Assembly (NCBI RefSeq): GCF_944324995.1
Contig: NZ_CALUYL010000031.1
Location: 1-36,700 of the forward strand
Reading direction: 5' to 3'
DNA: 36,700 nt
Origin: an uncultured Mailhella sp.
GTDB lineage: Bacteria > Desulfobacterota > Desulfovibrionia > Desulfovibrionales > Desulfovibrionaceae
Part shown: in pieces, positions 14,865 to 22,761 of the stretch
Position numbering within the stretch: position 1 is the stretch's first letter
Layout of the letters: every line of letters begins with the position of its first letter
Program-made: the position numbers and the translations under genes
The notes under the pieces: model-generated
What the model was told of the DNA's origin: nothing
The model's input: only the letters and a program-made list of their open reading frames with translations
The model's database searches: none

Positions 14865-14923
14865 TTTCCGCATCATTCATTGTCCAAAGACCCATGCGCC
14901 GCACGCGCAGAGGGCACGGTGCC

Positions 14924-15715
14924 ATGAAGAGCGACTCCCTGACGAATTTCACCCGCGCGGCGTCCAGCCCCTTCGGCTCATCCTTCGACGCCAACGACGC
15001 GACAGGCCTCCCCGATCTGGAAACCTGCCGGAGACATCTGCTCAGATTCAGTCGGGAAATCGCCGTTTCCCGCGGCGCCAAGCTCCCGGTGAACAAGGTG
15101 TACTTTCTGCTTGAGGGCACGGTCACGCTCACCGCGCTTTCGGCCACGGGCGGACATCATTCCCTCATCTACTTCCGCCCCGGCGATCTGCTCAGCTTCA
15201 TTCCCTCCGTCAATCACGCCTACGGCATTCCCCACGACGCCTTCGACTTCCTGCTCTACAACGAATCGCTCGCCATGTGCGCCAAGACGTCCTGCCGCCT
15301 CGTCTGCACCGAAAACCGCGAGTTCATGCAGCACATGCATGAAGAGCCCCTGCACACACTGCTCATCCGCGGTCTTGCCGGCAATCTCATGAAGATCATC
15401 GTGCAGTCGGTGAACAACTGCACCCTGCCCGCCATCGTGCGGGTCTGCCGCATGCTCTCCGTGTCCATGGAAAAGGATCCGCCCCACGCCCTGCCCCGCT
15501 ACCTCACCCACACGGAAATTGCCGGACACCTCTCCATGCACGTGATGACCGTGACGAAAATCTTCCACTCCCTGCGCAAGGCGGGCATTCTCGGCAAGGA
15601 ACACGGCACGACGTTCGTGAAGAATCCGCAGGAGCTCGTCAAGCTCTCCTCGCAGGTCAGTCAGCTTTCCTACCGCACCGAGGCCTTGCCGGGACAGGAC
15701 GTCGCGCGCCGCTGA
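14924..15715 (+). CDS. Crp/Fnr family transcriptional regulator
   Basis: A 263-residue regulator with an N-terminal cyclic-nucleotide-binding-type beta roll (VNKVYFLLEGTVTLTALS ... SLIYFRPGDLLSFIPS, residues ~50-95), a long dimer helix (~145-185) and a C-terminal winged helix (YLTHTEIAGHLSMHVMTVTKIFHSLRKAGIL). No FNR-like N-terminal cysteine cluster is present, so it is not an obvious oxygen sensor. The recognition helix (MTVTKIFHSL) lacks the E-x-x-S-R of canonical FNR, suggesting a different half-site. ATG 14924 is preferred (AGAGGG ~10 nt upstream); ATG 14894 is a possible alternative. It precedes, across a 1-kb gap, the DASS-TrxR-Trx-ASST operon, whose promoter has a Crp/Fnr-type palindrome. 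Confidence 0.88.
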   Translation: MKSDSLTNFTRAASSPFGSSFDANDATGLPDLETCRRHLLRFSREIAVSRGAKLPVNKVYFLLEGTVTLTALSATGGHHSLIYFRPGDLLSFIPSVNHAYGIPHDAFDFLLYNESLAMCAKTSCRLVCTENREFMQHMHEEPLHTLLIRGLAGNLMKIIVQSVNNCTLPAIVRVCRMLSVSMEKDPPHALPRYLTHTEIAGHLSMHVMTVTKIFHSLRKAGILGKEHGTTFVKNPQELVKLSSQVSQLSYRTEALPGQDVARR

Positions 15716-16741: not shown

Positions 16742-18274
16742 ATGTCGTCAAAGAAACTTCCTCTTTCCACCATCATCAACACCGTCATCGGCATCGGCAT
16801 CATGTTCCTCGGCTACGTGCTGCCCTGCCCTTCCATGACCGTTCCCGTCAACGACGCCCTCGTTGCCGCAGGTTTCCCCGTGGTGGACGGCAACGCCGTC
16901 ATCACCATCACCCGCATGGGCATGGTGAACGCCATGATCTTCCTCGGCGTCGTCTATCTCTGGACCTTCGTCGATACGCTCTGGCCCTGCTTCCTCGGTG
17001 TGCTCATGCTCGCCTTCAGCGGATTCACCCCCGCTCCCAAGGTGCTCAATTCCTTCCTCGGCAATCCCATGGTGGTCATGATCTTCTTCACCCTCTGCTT
17101 TGCCACCGCCCTCATCAAGAGCAACGTTTCCGCCTGGCTCGCCCAGTGGATTCTCCGCCGCGACTTCATCATAGGACGCCCCTGGACCTTCACCGGCGTC
17201 ATCCTGCTCGCCACCTACTTCCTGGCCTTCTTTGAACAGACTTCCATCTGCTTCCTCATCTGGCCCGTCATGTACACCATCTTCAATCAGGTGGGCTTCA
17301 AGCGCGGCGACAAGTACGTTGCCATCATGCTGGTGTACATCATCATCATGTCGCTGCTCTCCTTCGCCTCCGATCCCTTCAAGACCGGCGCCTTCCTGCT
17401 GCTCGGCAACATCTGGAGCATGGCCGCCAACAATCCCGGCCTGAACGTTCCGGATCTGCCCGCCGCCTCCTACTTCTGCTTCGCCCTCGTTGTTTCCCTC
17501 ATCTCCATCGCCGGCCTCATCTTCGCCATGCGCTTCATCTTCCGCGTGGACGTCTCCCCCCTGCTCAAGCTTGATCCCGAAGTGCTGCGCAAGGAACCCC
17601 TGCCGCCCATGACCGGCTATCAGATCGGCGTGCTCGTCGCCTTCGCCCTCTTCGCCTTCTGGATTCTCCTGCCCGGCATCATCGGCAAGGACAACGTCGT
17701 CGGCGCCTTCCTCGCCAAAAACTCCATGCTTGCCCCCCTCGTCGCCCTGTTCATCGTGGGCTTCGTCCACCTGCGCGGCAAGCCCATCGCCGACGTGAGC
17801 GACACCGCAACCGTCTATCCCTGGCGCATCTTCCTGCTCATCGCCGTGGCCATGCTCCTCGGCGACGCCATGACCGGCAAGGGCACCAACGTGACCATCT
17901 TCATGGAATACGTCCTGCGCGGCGCCCTCTCCGGCTTCGGCTACGTGGCCCTGTGCATCGCCGTCATTCTGCTCGGCATCACCTGCACCAACTTCTGCAA
18001 CTCCGTGGTGCTCGGCCTCGTGCTCACCCCCGTGCTGCTCGCCATGTGCAACGCCTTCGGCATGAACGCCGGTCCCCTCATGGCCTGCTTCATCTACGCC
18101 GTGCTCATCGCCGCCTGCACCCCCGCAGCCTCGCCGTTCGCCGCCATGCTCTTCGGCAACACGCAGTGGCTCTCCCCGAAGGAAATCGTCACCTACAGCG
18201 TGACCGCCTCCCTGCTCATCGCCGGCGTCATCATCGTGGTGGGCATCCCGCTCGCCATGCTCATCTTCGGATAA
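16742..18274 (+). CDS. DASS/SLC13-type anion permease
   Basis: A 510-residue polytopic inner-membrane protein with 11-13 hydrophobic helices, including two similar halves with re-entrant-type segments AFFEQTSICFLIWPVMY (~160-176) and GITCTNFCNSVVLGLVLTP (~416-434), where DASS proteins have their Ser-Asn-Thr-like substrate and sodium sites. DASS members carry dicarboxylates, citrate or sulfate/sulfonate-type anions. GGAGG (16732-16736) precedes ATG 16742; an in-frame ATG at 16688 has none. It is the first gene of an operon ending with an aryl-sulfate sulfotransferase, so import or exchange of an organic sulfate is the most economical proposal; substrate identity is inference. Confidence 0.85.
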   Translation: MSSKKLPLSTIINTVIGIGIMFLGYVLPCPSMTVPVNDALVAAGFPVVDGNAVITITRMGMVNAMIFLGVVYLWTFVDTLWPCFLGVLMLAFSGFTPAPKVLNSFLGNPMVVMIFFTLCFATALIKSNVSAWLAQWILRRDFIIGRPWTFTGVILLATYFLAFFEQTSICFLIWPVMYTIFNQVGFKRGDKYVAIMLVYIIIMSLLSFASDPFKTGAFLLLGNIWSMAANNPGLNVPDLPAASYFCFALVVSLISIAGLIFAMRFIFRVDVSPLLKLDPEVLRKEPLPPMTGYQIGVLVAFALFAFWILLPGIIGKDNVVGAFLAKNSMLAPLVALFIVGFVHLRGKPIADVSDTATVYPWRIFLLIAVAMLLGDAMTGKGTNVTIFMEYVLRGALSGFGYVALCIAVILLGITCTNFCNSVVLGLVLTPVLLAMCNAFGMNAGPLMACFIYAVLIAACTPAASPFAAMLFGNTQWLSPKEIVTYSVTASLLIAGVIIVVGIPLAMLIFG

Positions 18275-18362
18275 CCTGCCTTCCGCCGAACTCTTCCGGC
18301 TCAACCAGAACGCTTCCCGCAATCCCCCCAGGGATCGCGACCGCAACAAAGGAGTTCTTCGC

Positions 18363-19289
18363 ATGAACAAGTACGACGTCATCATCGTGGGCGGCGGCCC
18401 CGCCGGTCTTACGGCTTCCATCTACGCCGTGCGCGCCAACATGAAAACGCTGGTGCTCGACAAGCTCGCCCCCGGCGGACAGATCATCAACACCAACGAA
18501 ATCGCCAACTACACCGGCTTCGGCACCATCAACGGCGCGGAGCTCGCCATCAAGATGTTTGAACACTCCCAGGAAGTCGGCGCGGAATTCGACTACAAGA
18601 CCGTCACCGCCATCGTGGACGAGGGCGACGTGAAAAAGGTGGTCTGCCTCGAAGACGACGCCGTGTATGAAGCCTCCGCGGTCATCATCGCAACCGGCAC
18701 TCGTCCCCGCCGCCTGCACATTCCCGGCGAAGACAAGCACGCCGGCGCCGGCATCAGCTGGTGCGCCATCTGCGACGGCGCCCAGTACCGCGGCAAGGAC
18801 GTCGTGGTCATCGGCGGCGGCAACTCCGCCGTGGAAGAATCCATCTACCTCGCCGGCATCGTGAACAAGCTCACCATCGTGACCATGTTCGACCTCACCG
18901 CCGATCCCATGGCCTGCGACAAGCTGCGCGCCATGCCCAACGTGACCATCTATCCCTATCAGGACGTGCTCGAATTCCTGGGCGACAACAAGCTCGAAGG
19001 CGTGCGCTTCAAGTCCACGAAGGAAGACGCCACCGAACGCACCGTGTCCTGCGACGGCGTGTTTGAATACATCGGCCTCGAACCCACGGCCTCCTTCTGC
19101 GCCGACCTCGGCATTCTCGACAGAACCGGCTGCATCATAACCGACGCCTCCATGGCCACCTCCCGCCCCGGCATCTTCGCCGCCGGCGACATCATCGTGA
19201 AGGGCCTGCGCCAGGTGGCCACCGCCTGCGGCGACGGCGCCATAGCCGCCAACTCCGCCTCCAAATACGTTGAAAAACTGAGAGGCTAG
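18363..19289 (+). CDS. Thioredoxin reductase-like flavoprotein without the usual NADPH motif
   Basis: A 308-residue protein of low-molecular-weight thioredoxin reductase length. FAD-binding VGGGPAG (9-15), redox-active CAIC (134-137, followed by DGA), second dinucleotide fold GGGNSA (151-156) and C-terminal SRPGIFAAGDI are all present. Where E. coli TrxB has HRRDxFRA for NADPH 2'-phosphate binding, this protein reads TMFDLTAD (174-181), with no arginine. It may use NADH or another donor, as suggested for atypical reductases in anaerobes. AAAGGAG (18348-18354) precedes the ATG. It lies between the DASS gene (88 bp) and a thioredoxin gene (62 bp), which is its likely substrate. Confidence 0.9.
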   Translation: MNKYDVIIVGGGPAGLTASIYAVRANMKTLVLDKLAPGGQIINTNEIANYTGFGTINGAELAIKMFEHSQEVGAEFDYKTVTAIVDEGDVKKVVCLEDDAVYEASAVIIATGTRPRRLHIPGEDKHAGAGISWCAICDGAQYRGKDVVVIGGGNSAVEESIYLAGIVNKLTIVTMFDLTADPMACDKLRAMPNVTIYPYQDVLEFLGDNKLEGVRFKSTKEDATERTVSCDGVFEYIGLEPTASFCADLGILDRTGCIITDASMATSRPGIFAAGDIIVKGLRQVATACGDGAIAANSASKYVEKLRG

Positions 19290-19351
19290 TCCTCTTTTTA
19301 CGCCCGGAACACCGTTCCGCAACACTCAAATTTCCCCAAGGAGCCTTCCCC

Positions 19352-19663
19352 ATGATCAAAGAAATCGACACCGCCGCCTACGACAGCATGGACAAGTCCG
19401 GCGTCATGCTGGTGGAATTTTATTCCAAGACCTGCGGCCCCTGCAAAATGCTTTCCTTCGTGCTCAAGGACATCGACAAGAACGATCCCGACTTCCGCAT
19501 CTTCACCGTGGACTTCGACGCCAATCAGGATCTCAAGGAACGCTGCGGCGTGAAGGGCTTCCCCACCATGCTCTTCATGAAGGACGGCGCAGAAGTCTCC
19601 CGCCTCGAAGGCCTGAAGCAGAAGCCCGCCATCATTCAGGAAATAGCCAAGCTCAAAGCCTAA
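19352..19663 (+). CDS. Thioredoxin
   Basis: A 103-residue single-domain thioredoxin with no signal peptide. The active site is CGPC at residues 28-31, preceded by Thr rather than the usual Trp, and the cis-proline segment GFPTMLFM follows at about 69-76. AAGGAG (19338-19343) is 8 nt before the ATG. The gene follows the thioredoxin reductase-like gene and precedes the aryl-sulfate sulfotransferase gene by 48 bp, so the three are surely co-transcribed. A dedicated redox pair for the sulfotransferase or for its downstream sulfur chemistry is plausible; E. coli CFT073 instead pairs its periplasmic enzyme with the disulfide-forming DsbL/DsbI. Confidence 0.93.
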   Translation: MIKEIDTAAYDSMDKSGVMLVEFYSKTCGPCKMLSFVLKDIDKNDPDFRIFTVDFDANQDLKERCGVKGFPTMLFMKDGAEVSRLEGLKQKPAIIQEIAKLKA

Positions 19664-19711
19664 CCCCCACACCCATATATCCACACGTAGAACGCTGAAA
19701 GGAGTCCAGCC

Positions 19712-21592
19712 ATGAGCAGCAAAGTGACGCACACCTACAACGATCACCTCATCACTCGCCAGAATCGCGCCGAGAAGGAATTCCTTGCCGCTTTTGAAGC
19801 GGAAAAGCCCACGCTCGAAAACGCCCATGTTCTGGTCAACCCCTACTTCATCAATCCGCTCTGCGCGCTGATCCTCTTCAAGAGCGAAAAGCCCGCCTCC
19901 GCCACCATGACCATTCACGGCAAGCGCAACGACCGTGAAAACATCGTTCACACCTTCCCCGAGGGCACCGATCACTTCATTCCGGTCATCGGCCTCTACG
20001 AAGGCATCGCCACCCGCGTGACCGTGGAACTCTCCACCGGCGAAAAGAACACCTTCTCCATCCAGTCCCAGCCCCTGCCCGAAGACGTGTGCCGCTGCCG
20101 CAACATCAACACGTCCATGGACTACTTCGGCAACAACTTCATGTTCCTCACCCCGGCCGGCAAGAACCTCCCCACCGCCTACGACTACATGGGCGACATC
20201 CGCTGGCTGCTCACCGAAAACACCATGTTCGACATCAAGCGCGTGAAGAACGGCAACATCATGACCGGCTCCCACCGCTTCTGCCACATGCCCTACTGCT
20301 CCACCGGCCTCATCGAACTGAACCTGCTCGGCAAGATCTACAAGGAATTCCGCATGCCGGGCAACTATCACCACGATCACTTTGAAATGCCCGACGGCAA
20401 CATCCTCGCCCTCACCCAGGACTTCACCTCGAGCACCGTCGAAGACATGATCGCCCTGCTCGACCGCGAAACCGGCGAAGTGCTCCGCACCTGGGACTAC
20501 AAGACCTTCCTGCCCCAGAACGTGGCCGGTTCCGGCTCCCAGGACGCCCACGACTGGTTCCACAACAACGCCCTGTGGTACAACGACAAGAACAAGACCA
20601 TCACCATTTCCGGCCGCCATCAGGACGCCATCGTCAACTTCGACTACGAAACCAGCAAGCTCAACTGGATCATCGGCGACCCCGAAACCTGGCCCGAAGA
20701 CATGCAGAAGTACTTCTTCAAGCCCGTGGGCGACGTGGAAAACTTCGACTGGCAGTATGAACAGCACGCCTGCGTGGTCTGCCCCGACGGCGACATCATG
20801 TGCTTCGACAACGGTCAGTACCGCTCCAAGGTGAAGGAACGCTACATCCGCAACCGCGACAACTTCTCCCGCGGCGTGCGCTACCGCATCGACACCGACA
20901 AGATGGAAATCGAACAGGTGTGGCAGTACGGCAAGGAACTCGGCCAGAGCTTCTTCTCGCCCTACATCTGCAACGTGGAATACTACGACGAAGGCCACTA
21001 CCTCATCCATTCCGGCGGCATCGGCTGGAAGGACGGCTACGCCTCCGACAAGCTCGGCGCCTTCATCAATCCCAAGAAGGAACCCGGCACCGACATCTGC
21101 GCCAAGACCGTGGAACAGAAGGACGGCGTGGTCATGTACTCCATGGAAGTGGACGGCAACTTCTACCGCGCTGAAAAGCTCTTCCCCTACCACGACGGCG
21201 ACAACGCCGCCTTCGGCGAGGGCAAGCTCCTCGGCCACCTCGACGTGACCCCCACCTTCGACACCATCCCCGACGTGCCCGAATCTCAGGAAGTCATCGA
21301 CTCCTGGCATCAGGTCAACATCGAGGAAGATGAAGACCGCATCGTCTTCCACGGCCGCTTCGCCCGCGGCTCCCTGGTCATGGTGCTGCTCGAAGGCGAA
21401 AAGGAAACCCGCGGCTACTTCATCAACACCGCCGCTTCCTACCACCTCGCCATGTGCTCCGGCGCCTACCTCGAAGACGACGACCGCGTCATCAAGCAGA
21501 ACATCAGCAAGGAAGGCCTCTCCGGCAAGTACGACATCAAGATCCTCGTCGAAGACACCAAGTACCAGACCGGCGTCTCCCTCTTCTGCTAA
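19712..21592 (+). CDS. Aryl-sulfate sulfotransferase (ASST), no signal peptide
   Basis: A 626-residue protein of the PAPS-independent arylsulfotransferase family, which moves a sulfuryl group from an aryl sulfate to a phenol through a sulfo-histidine. Visible motifs: an N-terminal beta domain (~35-120); HHDHFEMPDGNILAL (220-234); DAHDWFHNNALWY with His284; ISGRHQDAIVNFDY with Arg302 (18 residues after His284, the same spacing as His356/Arg374 of the CFT073 enzyme); and EQHACVVCPDGDIMCFDNGQ with His352, the likely sulfo-histidine. The N-terminus MSSKVTHTYNDHLITRQNRA is hydrophilic, so export is not indicated, unlike the periplasmic E. coli enzyme. AAAGGAG precedes the ATG. Last gene of the DASS-TrxR-Trx-ASST operon, ended by a strong terminator. 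Physiological donor and acceptor unknown. Confidence 0.9.
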   Translation: MSSKVTHTYNDHLITRQNRAEKEFLAAFEAEKPTLENAHVLVNPYFINPLCALILFKSEKPASATMTIHGKRNDRENIVHTFPEGTDHFIPVIGLYEGIATRVTVELSTGEKNTFSIQSQPLPEDVCRCRNINTSMDYFGNNFMFLTPAGKNLPTAYDYMGDIRWLLTENTMFDIKRVKNGNIMTGSHRFCHMPYCSTGLIELNLLGKIYKEFRMPGNYHHDHFEMPDGNILALTQDFTSSTVEDMIALLDRETGEVLRTWDYKTFLPQNVAGSGSQDAHDWFHNNALWYNDKNKTITISGRHQDAIVNFDYETSKLNWIIGDPETWPEDMQKYFFKPVGDVENFDWQYEQHACVVCPDGDIMCFDNGQYRSKVKERYIRNRDNFSRGVRYRIDTDKMEIEQVWQYGKELGQSFFSPYICNVEYYDEGHYLIHSGGIGWKDGYASDKLGAFINPKKEPGTDICAKTVEQKDGVVMYSMEVDGNFYRAEKLFPYHDGDNAAFGEGKLLGHLDVTPTFDTIPDVPESQEVIDSWHQVNIEEDEDRIVFHGRFARGSLVMVLLEGEKETRGYFINTAASYHLAMCSGAYLEDDDRVIKQNISKEGLSGKYDIKILVEDTKYQTGVSLFC

Positions 21593-21608
21593 CCCCCTGT
21601 AAACAAAA

Positions 21609-21626
21609 CTGCCGCACACGCGGCAG
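21609..21626. other. Small hairpin after the ASST gene
   Basis: CTGCCGC, loop ACAC, GCGGCAG. It lacks a T-run and sits just before the true terminator; it may help 3'-end stability. Confidence 0.4.
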
Positions 21627-21630
21627 CCCC

Positions 21631-21674
21631 GCTGCGCCGAGCCCTCACTTTCCCCCTCGGCGCAGCTTTTTTTT
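21631..21674 (+). terminator. Rho-independent terminator of the ASST operon
   Basis: An 11-bp perfect stem GCTGCGCCGAG (21631-21641)/CTCGGCGCAGC (21656-21666) with a 14-nt loop, followed by eight T's (21667-21674). Confidence 0.93.
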
Positions 21675-21693
21675 AAGGAAGAGAGGAGGATGA

Positions 21694-21746
21694 GCGGGGG
21701 GAAGGAGAAAACCCTTTTGAAAAAGGGCTTTTCTCCTTCCCCCCGC
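21694..21746. repeat. 53-bp near-perfect inverted repeat
   Basis: The left arm starts GCGGGGGGAAGGAGAAAA and the right arm ends in its reverse complement; the inner parts CCCTTTT and AAAAAGGG also pair, with one bulged base. Outer sequences GAGGATG and CATCCTC extend the pairing imperfectly. It overlaps the start of the first 226-bp tandem repeat copy; in copies 2 and 3 the left arm is missing. Confidence 0.8.
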
Positions 21747-22293
21747 ACCCCCCATCCTCTTTCCGAAAACTTTTATCAGGGGGAGCAAAGAACTGATTGG
21801 AGCAATGGTTGCCGTCGGCAGCAGCCGCAGCGATGCGCCGGGCACGAAGGCTTGCCGGGCTTGCGAATGGTTCCGCCGCAGGTGAGATGCTGGAAAAGAT
21901 GAAGGAAGAGGGAGAGTTTGACCGAGGAATGAAGCCCCCCCTTTTGAAAAAGGGCTTTTCTCCTTCCCCCCGCGCCCCCCATCCTCTTTCCGAAAACTTT
22001 TATCAGGGGGGCGAAGAACTGATTGGAGCGATAGTTGCCGTCGGCAGCAGCCGCAGCGATGCGCCGGGCACGAAGGCTTGCCGGGCTTGCGAATGGTTCC
22101 GCCGCAGGTGAGATGCTGGAAAAGATGAAGGAAGAGGGAGAGTTTGACCGAGGAATGAAGCCCCCCCTTTTGAAAAAGGGCTTTTCTCCTTCCCCCCGCG
22201 CCCCCCATCCTCTTTCCGAAAACTTTTATCAGGGGGGCGAAGAACTGATTGGAGCGATAGTTGCCGTCGGCAGCAGCCGCAGCGATGCGCCGG
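21705..22293. repeat. 226-bp tandem repeat, three copies (third truncated)
   Basis: Copy 1 is about 21705-21930, copy 2 is 21931-22156 and copy 3 is 22157-22293 (137 bp). Copies 2 and 3 are identical over those 137 bp; copy 1 differs at a few places in its first half but matches copy 2 from about 21808 to 21930. Each contains CCCTTTTGAAAAAGGG, a C-rich stretch, TTTCCGAAAACTTTTATCAG and a GCCGTCGGCAGCAGCCGC segment. Frames translated across it repeat because the DNA repeats; no gene is supported. Function unknown. Confidence 0.9.
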
Positions 22294-22434: not shown

Positions 22435-22761
22435 CTACACGGCAAAGAGCTTGCCGCATTTGCGGCAGCGGTACAGATGTCGATTGTATTTGTTGTCCAT
22501 GGCATGTCCGGCCCTGTTGCCGAGCGCCGCGCCCGAAACGCCGCCGGTCACGGCTCCCACAAGTCCCCCGGCAAGCGCGCCGATGGCCGATCCTATCACC
22601 GGAAACACGGAACCTATGGCGGCCCCGGCCGCCGCTCCGGCACTGATGCCCGACACTCCGGCCGCAGCGCCGCCTACGCCGCCCGCCGTGGTGCCGAGCA
22701 CCCGGTAGCGGTTATCCTTGCACACATCGGAACTCTTGCAGCGCGGACAGCGAACAGTCAT
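22435..22761 (-). CDS. Small zinc-ribbon protein with internal glycine-zipper membrane segment
   Basis: A 108-residue protein not assigned to a named family. It starts MTVRCPRCKSSDVC (Cys5, Cys8, Cys14) and ends YRCRKCGKLFAV (Cys99, Cys102), so the two halves of a CxxC...CxxC zinc ribbon are separated by about 90 residues. The insert (~22-86) is almost entirely Gly, Ala, Val and Ile with repeated GxxxG spacing (AGAAAGAAIGSVFPVIGSAIGALAGG is its core, given in part), like glycine-zipper segments that form membrane hairpins. Both termini would then lie on the same side. GAGGTG is about 8 nt before the ATG. It stands alone on the minus strand between the repeat array and the glnN control region. 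Function unknown. Confidence 0.75.
   Translation of the reverse strand: MTVRCPRCKSSDVCKDNRYRVLGTTAGGVGGAAAGVSGISAGAAAGAAIGSVFPVIGSAIGALAGGLVGAVTGGVSGAALGNRAGHAMDNKYNRHLYRCRKCGKLFAV

Follow-up and report, generated by a model that had tools for sequence, protein, structure and literature searches.

The sequence analysed here (the window) is a stretch of 36,700 nucleotides from an uncultured Mailhella sp. of the Desulfovibrionaceae (RefSeq assembly GCF_944324995.1, contig NZ_CALUYL010000031.1). Its forward strand carries an operon (16742-21592) of four head-to-tail genes encoding a permease, a thioredoxin reductase-like flavoprotein, a thioredoxin and an aryl-sulfate sulfotransferase (ASST) (Table 1). 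An earlier note, made from the sequence alone, had described four such genes with gaps of 48-88 bp, and the same open reading frames were recovered, separated by 88, 62 and 48 bp. Pfam and NCBIfam profiles classified the four products as CitMHS-like (weakly), Pyr_redox_2, Thioredoxin, and Arylsulfotrans PF05935 with an Ig-like Arylsulfotran_N domain. Judged by genomic association and chemistry, the operon probably serves cytosolic reductive desulfation of organic (probably aryl) sulfates to sulfite.

The sulfotransferase and its operon partners

Alignment of the window ASST with the E. coli enzyme (3elq) places His284, Asn286, Arg302 and His352 at H356, N358, R374 and H436, residues that we take to be catalytic, with His436 as the sulfuryl acceptor. 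All four are invariant in 87 of 87 distinct ASST sequences, including the three (His284, His352 and Arg302) that the earlier note had listed as family residues. The AlphaFold2 model has a predicted local distance difference test score (pLDDT) of 91.3, and its nine best Protein Data Bank matches in Foldseek are all E. coli ASST chains (TM-scores by query length, 0.59-0.61). By profile, catalytic His/Asn/Arg/His set and predicted fold, the window protein fits the PF05935 family.

The enzyme had been read as cytosolic, without a signal peptide, and this reading holds. An in-frame TAG at 19688-19690 lies 8 codons 5' of the ATG, so a longer start is not available and a missed signal peptide is ruled out. 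Neither the window protein nor its relatives have a hydrophobic N-terminus of the signal type: among 67 relatives, each taken as its longest frame, the 12-residue hydropathy maximum in the first 50 residues never exceeded 1.56, a measure that separates exported and cytosolic groups only roughly, the upstream stop being the firm evidence. In a 53-row ASST alignment (five rows trimmed to a later start) the measure peaked at 1.74; the peak, at residue 36, falls within the fold. Seven other PF05935 genes occur in the same genome, five clustered on contig C13 at about 46700-57000 (L026:6723-16592), one on C16 (L027) and one on C5 (L028), and several of their products have Sec- or Tat-like N-termini. 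Signal-like N-termini, with hydropathy values of 1.62-2.33, are seen in five of the seven; the value for the C16 gene is 1.04, and one C13 gene has no clear start. The host thus seems to have exported ASST-like proteins besides the cytosolic one. A tblastn search at 1e-6 found no thioredoxin or thioredoxin reductase gene within 4 kb of these seven genes. A shorter ASST-like protein (~480-520 aa), whose visible starts show no obvious signal peptide, stands beside the long ASST in Desulfosporosinus-family and Peptococcaceae loci (L158 5907-7481, L160 6405-7892, L164 6966-8447, L076, L080, L085 and L093).

In the E. coli enzyme, Cys418 and Cys424 presumably form a disulfide near the active site. 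Counted on the 3elq alignment, these cysteines are without counterpart: 0 of 53 ASST sequences have a cysteine in residues 330-352. Lacking both signal peptide and disulfide cysteines, the window ASST does not appear, from its sequence, to be of the periplasmic, DsbL/DsbI-dependent (cluster I) type. This absence from all 53 sequences strengthens the idea of an inverted redox logic, with a reducing thioredoxin and reductase replacing DsbL/DsbI. Of the cysteines in the window ASST, Cys582 alone is invariant (87/87 distinct sequences), and Cys420 is kept in 78 of 87. Cys354 and Cys357, beside His352, were considered as a relay and are not conserved (62/87 and 20/87, respectively). Model confidence around Cys582 is low (mean pLDDT 69 for residues 571-580 and 50 for 581-590). 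The window ASST has 274 residues after the catalytic histidine, compared to 135 in the E. coli enzyme, from which the C-terminal part bearing Cys582 seems to be absent.

The operon thioredoxin has a thioredoxin fold with a CxxC motif by PF00085, in which TCGPC stands in place of WCGPC; 50 of 51 operon copies share TCGPC. The flavoprotein has CAIC and GGGNSA; HRR, the motif that serves the 2'-phosphate of NADPH, is absent from it and from all operon homologues (0/51); both 51-sequence counts include three loci twice. Aligned with the canonical reductase of the same genome, it shows LRQ and ISW-CAIC. The host's canonical thioredoxin (WCGPC) and reductase (HRR) are encoded on contig C13 and are distinct from the operon pair. 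Without HRR and below the TIGR01292 cut-off, the flavoprotein does not look like an NADPH thioredoxin reductase. HRR is also reported to be absent from the non-NADPH reductases in a published comparison (PMC5627308), so the electron donor may be other than NADPH.

The only Pfam match of the permease is CitMHS PF03600, under the cut-off of 31.9 bits, which places it outside Na_sulph_symp/CitMHS by profile; its relatives at loci L087 and L025 exceed the Pfam cut-off. Its AlphaFold2 model (pLDDT 83.5) is closest in Foldseek to NaDC3, INDY, NaDC1 and the sulfate transporter NaS1, with TM-scores of ~0.7 at best against NaDC3, INDY and NaS1. The predicted fold is DASS/SLC13-like, making the permease a candidate importer of an organic sulfate anion and agreeing with the importer proposed before. 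A major facilitator superfamily (MFS) transporter replaces the permease in other loci; the one scanned with NCBIfam, that of L048, is closest to aromatic-acid symporters, below the cut-off, which hints that the transported substrate is aromatic.

Distribution of the gene set and of sulfite reductase genes

Window-type ASST genes are patchily distributed in the bacterial family of the host, occurring in 6 of 119 genomes (8 copies, the split copy of G115 counted once). The order is mostly permease-reductase-thioredoxin-ASST; G008 has permease-ASST-reductase-thioredoxin, a second copy in G036 has a DASS permease, thioredoxin and ASST with no reductase, and one copy in G086 has reductase-thioredoxin-ASST with a DASS gene beyond. 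A profile (A2) built from operon thioredoxin copies of the ASST genomes matched 7 of the 119 genomes at E<=1e-15, and six of these are exactly the ASST genomes (Fisher 2e-9). They hold 8 matching thioredoxins (190-209 bits), and every one of these shares a gene run with one of the 8 ASSTs. This distribution is the best evidence that the operon thioredoxin is a dedicated partner of ASST. The seventh genome, G101, is the only one of the 119 with such a match but without this ASST; the match, at G101:C5:51192-51500, is weak (58.8 bits).

Alternatively, sulfide or a small thiol could accept the sulfuryl group from ASST, and the resulting S-sulfonate or thiosulfate could later be cleaved by thioredoxin or a reductase, leaving thioredoxin one step further off. 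Some ASST loci have no adjacent thioredoxin, and free S-sulfocysteine is reported to be reduced by thioredoxin in vitro (PMC3528435); both fit this explanation. The one-to-one pairing of a special thioredoxin with ASST suggests direct contact instead, and we regard the small-thiol route as improbable.

More widely, GTDB contigs were scanned with the ASST alignment and two short peptide patterns, giving 67 loci in Desulfobacterota and Firmicutes that are not an even sample. The nearest named matches, L053 and L054 (Mailhella), are 100% and 98% identical over their parts, and L033, likewise from Mailhella, has sequence in common with contig C98 of the genus-mate G115. Within 3.5 kb on the same strand, thioredoxin genes accompany ASST in 44 of 67 loci, reductase genes in 45 and both in 43, in several gene orders; a transporter (window-type permease, DASS or MFS) is present in 53. 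Of the 45 loci flanked by 2.5 kb or more in both directions, 30 have thioredoxin or reductase. The check on gene-order conservation that had been suggested for this operon is answered in part: both Desulfobacterota and Firmicutes have further instances of the gene set, but the order varies and the host's family has the ASST in few genomes. Because the gene set recurs in both phyla and the thioredoxin pairs with ASST, a chance gene cluster was rejected.

In the family of the Desulfosporosinus genome G139, ASST was found at E<=1e-100 in 18 of 45 genomes. The window-type reductase and thioredoxin accompany ASST in 5 of 20 regions (L163-L167). In 10 of 20 (L156-L160, L162, L168, L169, L173 and L175) a small thioredoxin-fold protein with CHVC adjoins ASST, and 8 of these (L156-L158, L160, L162, L168, L169 and L173) add a reductase-thioredoxin-like fusion of 404-423 aa; one CHVC protein and two of the fusions were examined with Pfam. 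The C-terminal thioredoxin-like domain of the fusion has no CxxC in L156 and L168, the two that were read; together with the separate CHVC thioredoxin beside it, the fusion makes an unusual redox pair. Since unlike thioredoxin/reductase pairs stand beside ASSTs, the comparison argues for a redox step as part of the ASST reaction and not only for inheritance of a block of genes.

Genes for anaerobic sulfite reductase are a second recurrent association. The genes asrA, asrB and asrC adjoin ASST in 10 of 67 loci, and six Asr subunits scanned (three from L087, one from L075 and two from L081) all exceeded NCBIfam cut-offs. Further along are a siroheme-synthase N-domain gene, hemC (L087) and hemA (L070). 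In a draw of 250 genomes from the Hungatella family, asrC (E<=1e-60) was found in 7 of 8 genomes with an ASST above 900 bits, a line of our own choosing, compared to 37 of 242 others (Fisher p=2e-5), and in all 7 it lies in the same gene run as ASST. Without the 900-bit line (ASST E<=1e-60), the counts are 9/15 and 35/235. Genome G342 has the same set in another arrangement (asrA-asrB-asrC-permease-reductase-thioredoxin-ASST-ASST).

Fifty ASST genomes were compared, with one of the 67 loci for each; second loci per genome, contig-end pieces, the G115 and G086 loci and six further loci were set aside. A sulfite reductase gene exceeded the cut-off in 44 of the 50 (asrC in 11, dsrA in 33, with no overlap). 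The six with neither dsrA nor asrC (G119, G123, G124, G142, G143 and G159) are all metagenome or draft assemblies, and G119 and G159 have, in our reading, a weak DsrB-sized match at a contig start. The sulfate-activation gene sat is absent in 23 of the 50, and 20 of these 23 have dsrA or asrC. The Firmicutes and the hosts without sat carry the weight of the association.

In the host genome (2.92 Mb), dsrA exceeds the curated cut-off, whereas sat gives no match and aprA none over its cut-off; sat was absent in all six genus genomes searched. The host should therefore reduce sulfite and not sulfate, so that only the former should be of use to it. Desulfation could instead yield sulfate for assimilation or detoxify phenols or sulfates, with the neighbouring genes coincidental. 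The patchy distribution (6/119 family genomes) fits this, but the window host has neither a sat match nor aprA above cut-off with which to use sulfate, and thioredoxin and asr genes are associated with ASST far above chance; we consider this explanation very improbable.

Proposed reductive desulfation pathway

We infer the substrate, the thiol acceptor, the sulfite product and its respiratory use as follows. The DASS-like permease would import a sulfate ester, and ASST would take the sulfuryl group onto His352, presumably by the mechanism of its family. The group would then pass to a thiol, either directly to a thioredoxin cysteine or to Cys582 of ASST, giving S-sulfocysteine. Thioredoxin would resolve the S-sulfocysteine to sulfite and be re-reduced by the flavoprotein, for a net reaction R-O-SO3- + 2 e- + 2 H+ -> R-OH + HSO3- that would use no ATP. 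The sulfite would feed Dsr in the window host and Asr in Hungatella and relatives. A mobile C-terminal loop in which the Cys582 thiol shuttles between His352 and thioredoxin is the detail that we favour, although it is less likely than not. Sulfite is the likely product, made reductively with thioredoxin, because the host has dsrA without a sat match or aprA above cut-off and because asrABC lies in the gene run of Hungatella and relatives.

The earlier note had proposed scavenging of host or dietary organic sulfates. We extend this idea, as the context (dsrA without a sat match or aprA above cut-off, and asrABC) points to reductive formation of sulfite. The note had placed thioredoxin in the operon as a reducing partner, which stands, and gave it no defined role; we propose that it is the electron donor for sulfite formation. 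Thus, what it observed is confirmed and its overall interpretation is partly supported.

One study offers a precedent for the chemistry: in vitro, free S-sulfocysteine is reported to be reduced by both Trx1 and Trx2 of E. coli, and sulfite set free in vivo to be reused (PMC3528435).

Several observations weigh against reductive desulfation. In that same study, overexpressed Trx1 or Trx2 brought no gain in S-sulfocysteine use in vivo, and Grx1 and NrdH were effective (PMC3528435). Cluster II enzymes, including one from H. effluvii, are reported to sulfate phenols and alcohols in vitro (PMC11576661, PMC13426309). Neither window-type thioredoxin nor reductase is near ASST in 15 of 45 well-flanked loci, and the proposition that every cytosolic ASST has a thioredoxin neighbour was rejected for this reason. 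Five of the 15 are named Peptococcaceae, L075 has asrABC but no thioredoxin by ASST, L072 has a CHVC-type relative that has lost its first cysteine, and the genomes of L043 and L055 hold a second ASST locus with both partners (L056 and L057). Likewise, 5 of 20 Desulfosporosinus-family regions (L161, L170, L171, L172 and L174) have neither kind of thioredoxin by ASST. Invariance of Cys582 is unremarkable alone, as 76 of 626 columns are invariant. Three genomes have AsrABC of the same score class with no ASST within the fetched 18 kb, so this AsrABC type is not exclusive to ASST. In the host's family, 100 of 119 genomes have dsrA over cut-off, and its co-occurrence with ASST there therefore tells little. 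Presence of ASST is weakly related to absence of sat in that family (4/36 vs 2/83, p=0.07), and sat loss is a weak predictor of the operon there; sat is present in 27 of the 50 ASST genomes.

Thioredoxin and its reductase might only keep ASST cysteines (such as Cys582, Cys420 and Cys354) reduced, with cytosolic transfer to a phenol or alcohol and the alcohol or phenol as the useful product. This is the function seen in vitro for the family (transfer to phenols and alcohols; PMC13426309, PMC11576661), and the conservation of Cys420 and Cys582 described above suits it. A short-chain dehydrogenase gene lies directly 3' of ASST in 4 loci (L020 10174-10926, L021 6898-7656, L036 6087-6836 and L046 8903-9652), so a freed alcohol may be oxidised there. 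We nevertheless judge this explanation unlikely: it leaves asrABC in the gene run unaccounted for and gives no reason why one cytosolic enzyme of an anaerobe needs a dedicated reducing pair.

Taken further, reductive desulfation would be an undescribed, ATP-free organosulfate respiration, in which an "aryl-sulfate reductase" passes sulfuryl to Cys582 or to its dedicated thioredoxin and supplies sulfite to DsrAB or AsrABC. It would be shared by sulfate reducers of sediments, by gut Desulfovibrionaceae and by Firmicutes of the gut, for example Hungatella, and would be the native role of the cluster II aryl sulfotransferases (ASTs) that are independent of 3'-phosphoadenosine 5'-phosphosulfate (PAPS). 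For this wider claim we find the case evenly balanced. If the operon makes sulfite, phenol sulfates from host or diet (for example p-cresol sulfate, indoxyl sulfate, and drug or steroid sulfates) would yield sulfite and H2S directly in the gut, without passing through sulfate and paying its cost in ATP. Bacteria would then have a new way of cleaving host conjugates, and PAPS-independent aryl sulfotransferases would gain their missing natural role.

A Crp/Fnr-family gene upstream is a possible regulator of the operon, and many of the related loci have a Crp homologue near their permease or ASST. The consensus promoter scan of the window found 2 promoters where 1.3 were expected. The single terminator described earlier is backed by a stable hairpin followed by T8 after ASST, but the consensus terminator scan did not include it among its calls. 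Just 3' of the operon, 21712-22293 is an intergenic repeat (a 226-bp unit x2.6, 98% matches) with the palindrome CCCTTTT..AAAAGGG. Beside the array, 22435-22761 on the reverse strand encodes a small protein that is rich in glycine and bears CxxC pairs at either end.

Table 1. Features of the operon and its flanks (window coordinates).
Feature	Position	Strand	Evidence
Crp/Fnr-family regulator gene	14894..15715	+	HTH_Crp_2 31.7 bits; 1.0 kb 5' of operon, same strand
Permease, predicted DASS/SLC13-like fold	16742..18274	+	PF03600 28.7 bits (below cut-off); AlphaFold2 and Foldseek
Thioredoxin reductase-like flavoprotein, CAIC, without HRR	18363..19289	+	TIGR01292 318.7 bits (below 343.45)
Thioredoxin, TCGPC active site	19352..19663	+	PF00085 73.9 bits
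ASST, cytosolic, 626 aa	19712..21592	+	PF05935 340 bits; AlphaFold2; no signal peptide
His284 codon (E. coli His356)	20561..20563	+	Invariant 87/87
Arg302 codon (E. coli Arg374)	20615..20617	+	Invariant 87/87
His352 codon (E. coli His436)	20765..20767	+	3elq alignment; invariant 87/87
Cys582 codon, proposed thiol relay	21455..21457	+	Sole invariant Cys, 87/87; low-confidence C-terminal loop
Probable intrinsic terminator, hairpins then T8	21610..21675	+	Fold of 21600-21690: -39.2 kcal/mol, z -4.1

Comparison with known systems

The E. coli CFT073 ASST (AssT), encoded with DsbL/DsbI, has the same fold and the same catalytic residues. According to a 2026 review, it resides in the periplasm and needs a disulfide that DsbL/DsbI introduce (PMC13426309). 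In contrast, the window enzyme is cytosolic, lacks the disulfide cysteines, has reducing partners and has a longer C-terminal part.

Cluster II PAPS-independent ASTs, such as DhAST of Desulfitobacterium hafniense and the ASST of Hungatella effluvii, have been studied as biocatalysts or sulfation catalysts in the work consulted (PMC11576661, PMC13426309, PMC11468790). ASSTs of Hungatella hathewayi and H. effluvii fall in the same alignment as the window protein; H. effluvii has several copies (five ASST matches). One study reportedly set HhAST (H. hathewayi) and NmAST aside because lysate activity was negligible or the yield low (PMC11468790), which favours neither side. The physiological role of PAPS-independent ASTs "remains poorly understood" according to the 2026 review, whose main text contains neither "thioredoxin" nor "sulfite" (PMC13426309); "thioredoxin" is likewise absent from the main text of the cluster II biocatalysis papers compared. 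Among the matches listed in open-licence PubMed Central, a scope that leaves aside subscription journals and preprints, no proposal of this pathway was found.

The simplest chemistry to combine a sulfuryl-donating enzyme with a dithiol protein and the reductase of the latter, and to yield sulfite, is that of PAPS reductase (CysH), where SO3 is transferred to a cysteine and attack by thioredoxin then releases sulfite. The likeness is in the proposed chemistry only, an S-sulfocysteine resolved by thioredoxin to sulfite: Pfam found no CysH (PAPS or adenosine 5'-phosphosulfate reductase) domain in the four operon proteins, and the donor would be a sulfate ester and not ATP-activated sulfate.

Desulfovibrio vulgaris TR3/Trx3 is also a non-canonical thioredoxin system without the NADPH phosphate motif (PMC5627308). 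TR3 is reported to have CxQ and a histidine before CxxC, compared to LRQ and ISW-CAIC in the operon flavoprotein; by these reported motifs the operon reductase probably belongs to another group. Bilophila, too, is reported to gain sulfite from an organic compound, through the isethionate sulfite-lyase IslA and with no need to activate sulfate (PMC6386719, PMC8473560). IslA works by glycyl radical C-S cleavage, whereas the window operon would combine O-S transfer with reduction by thioredoxin.

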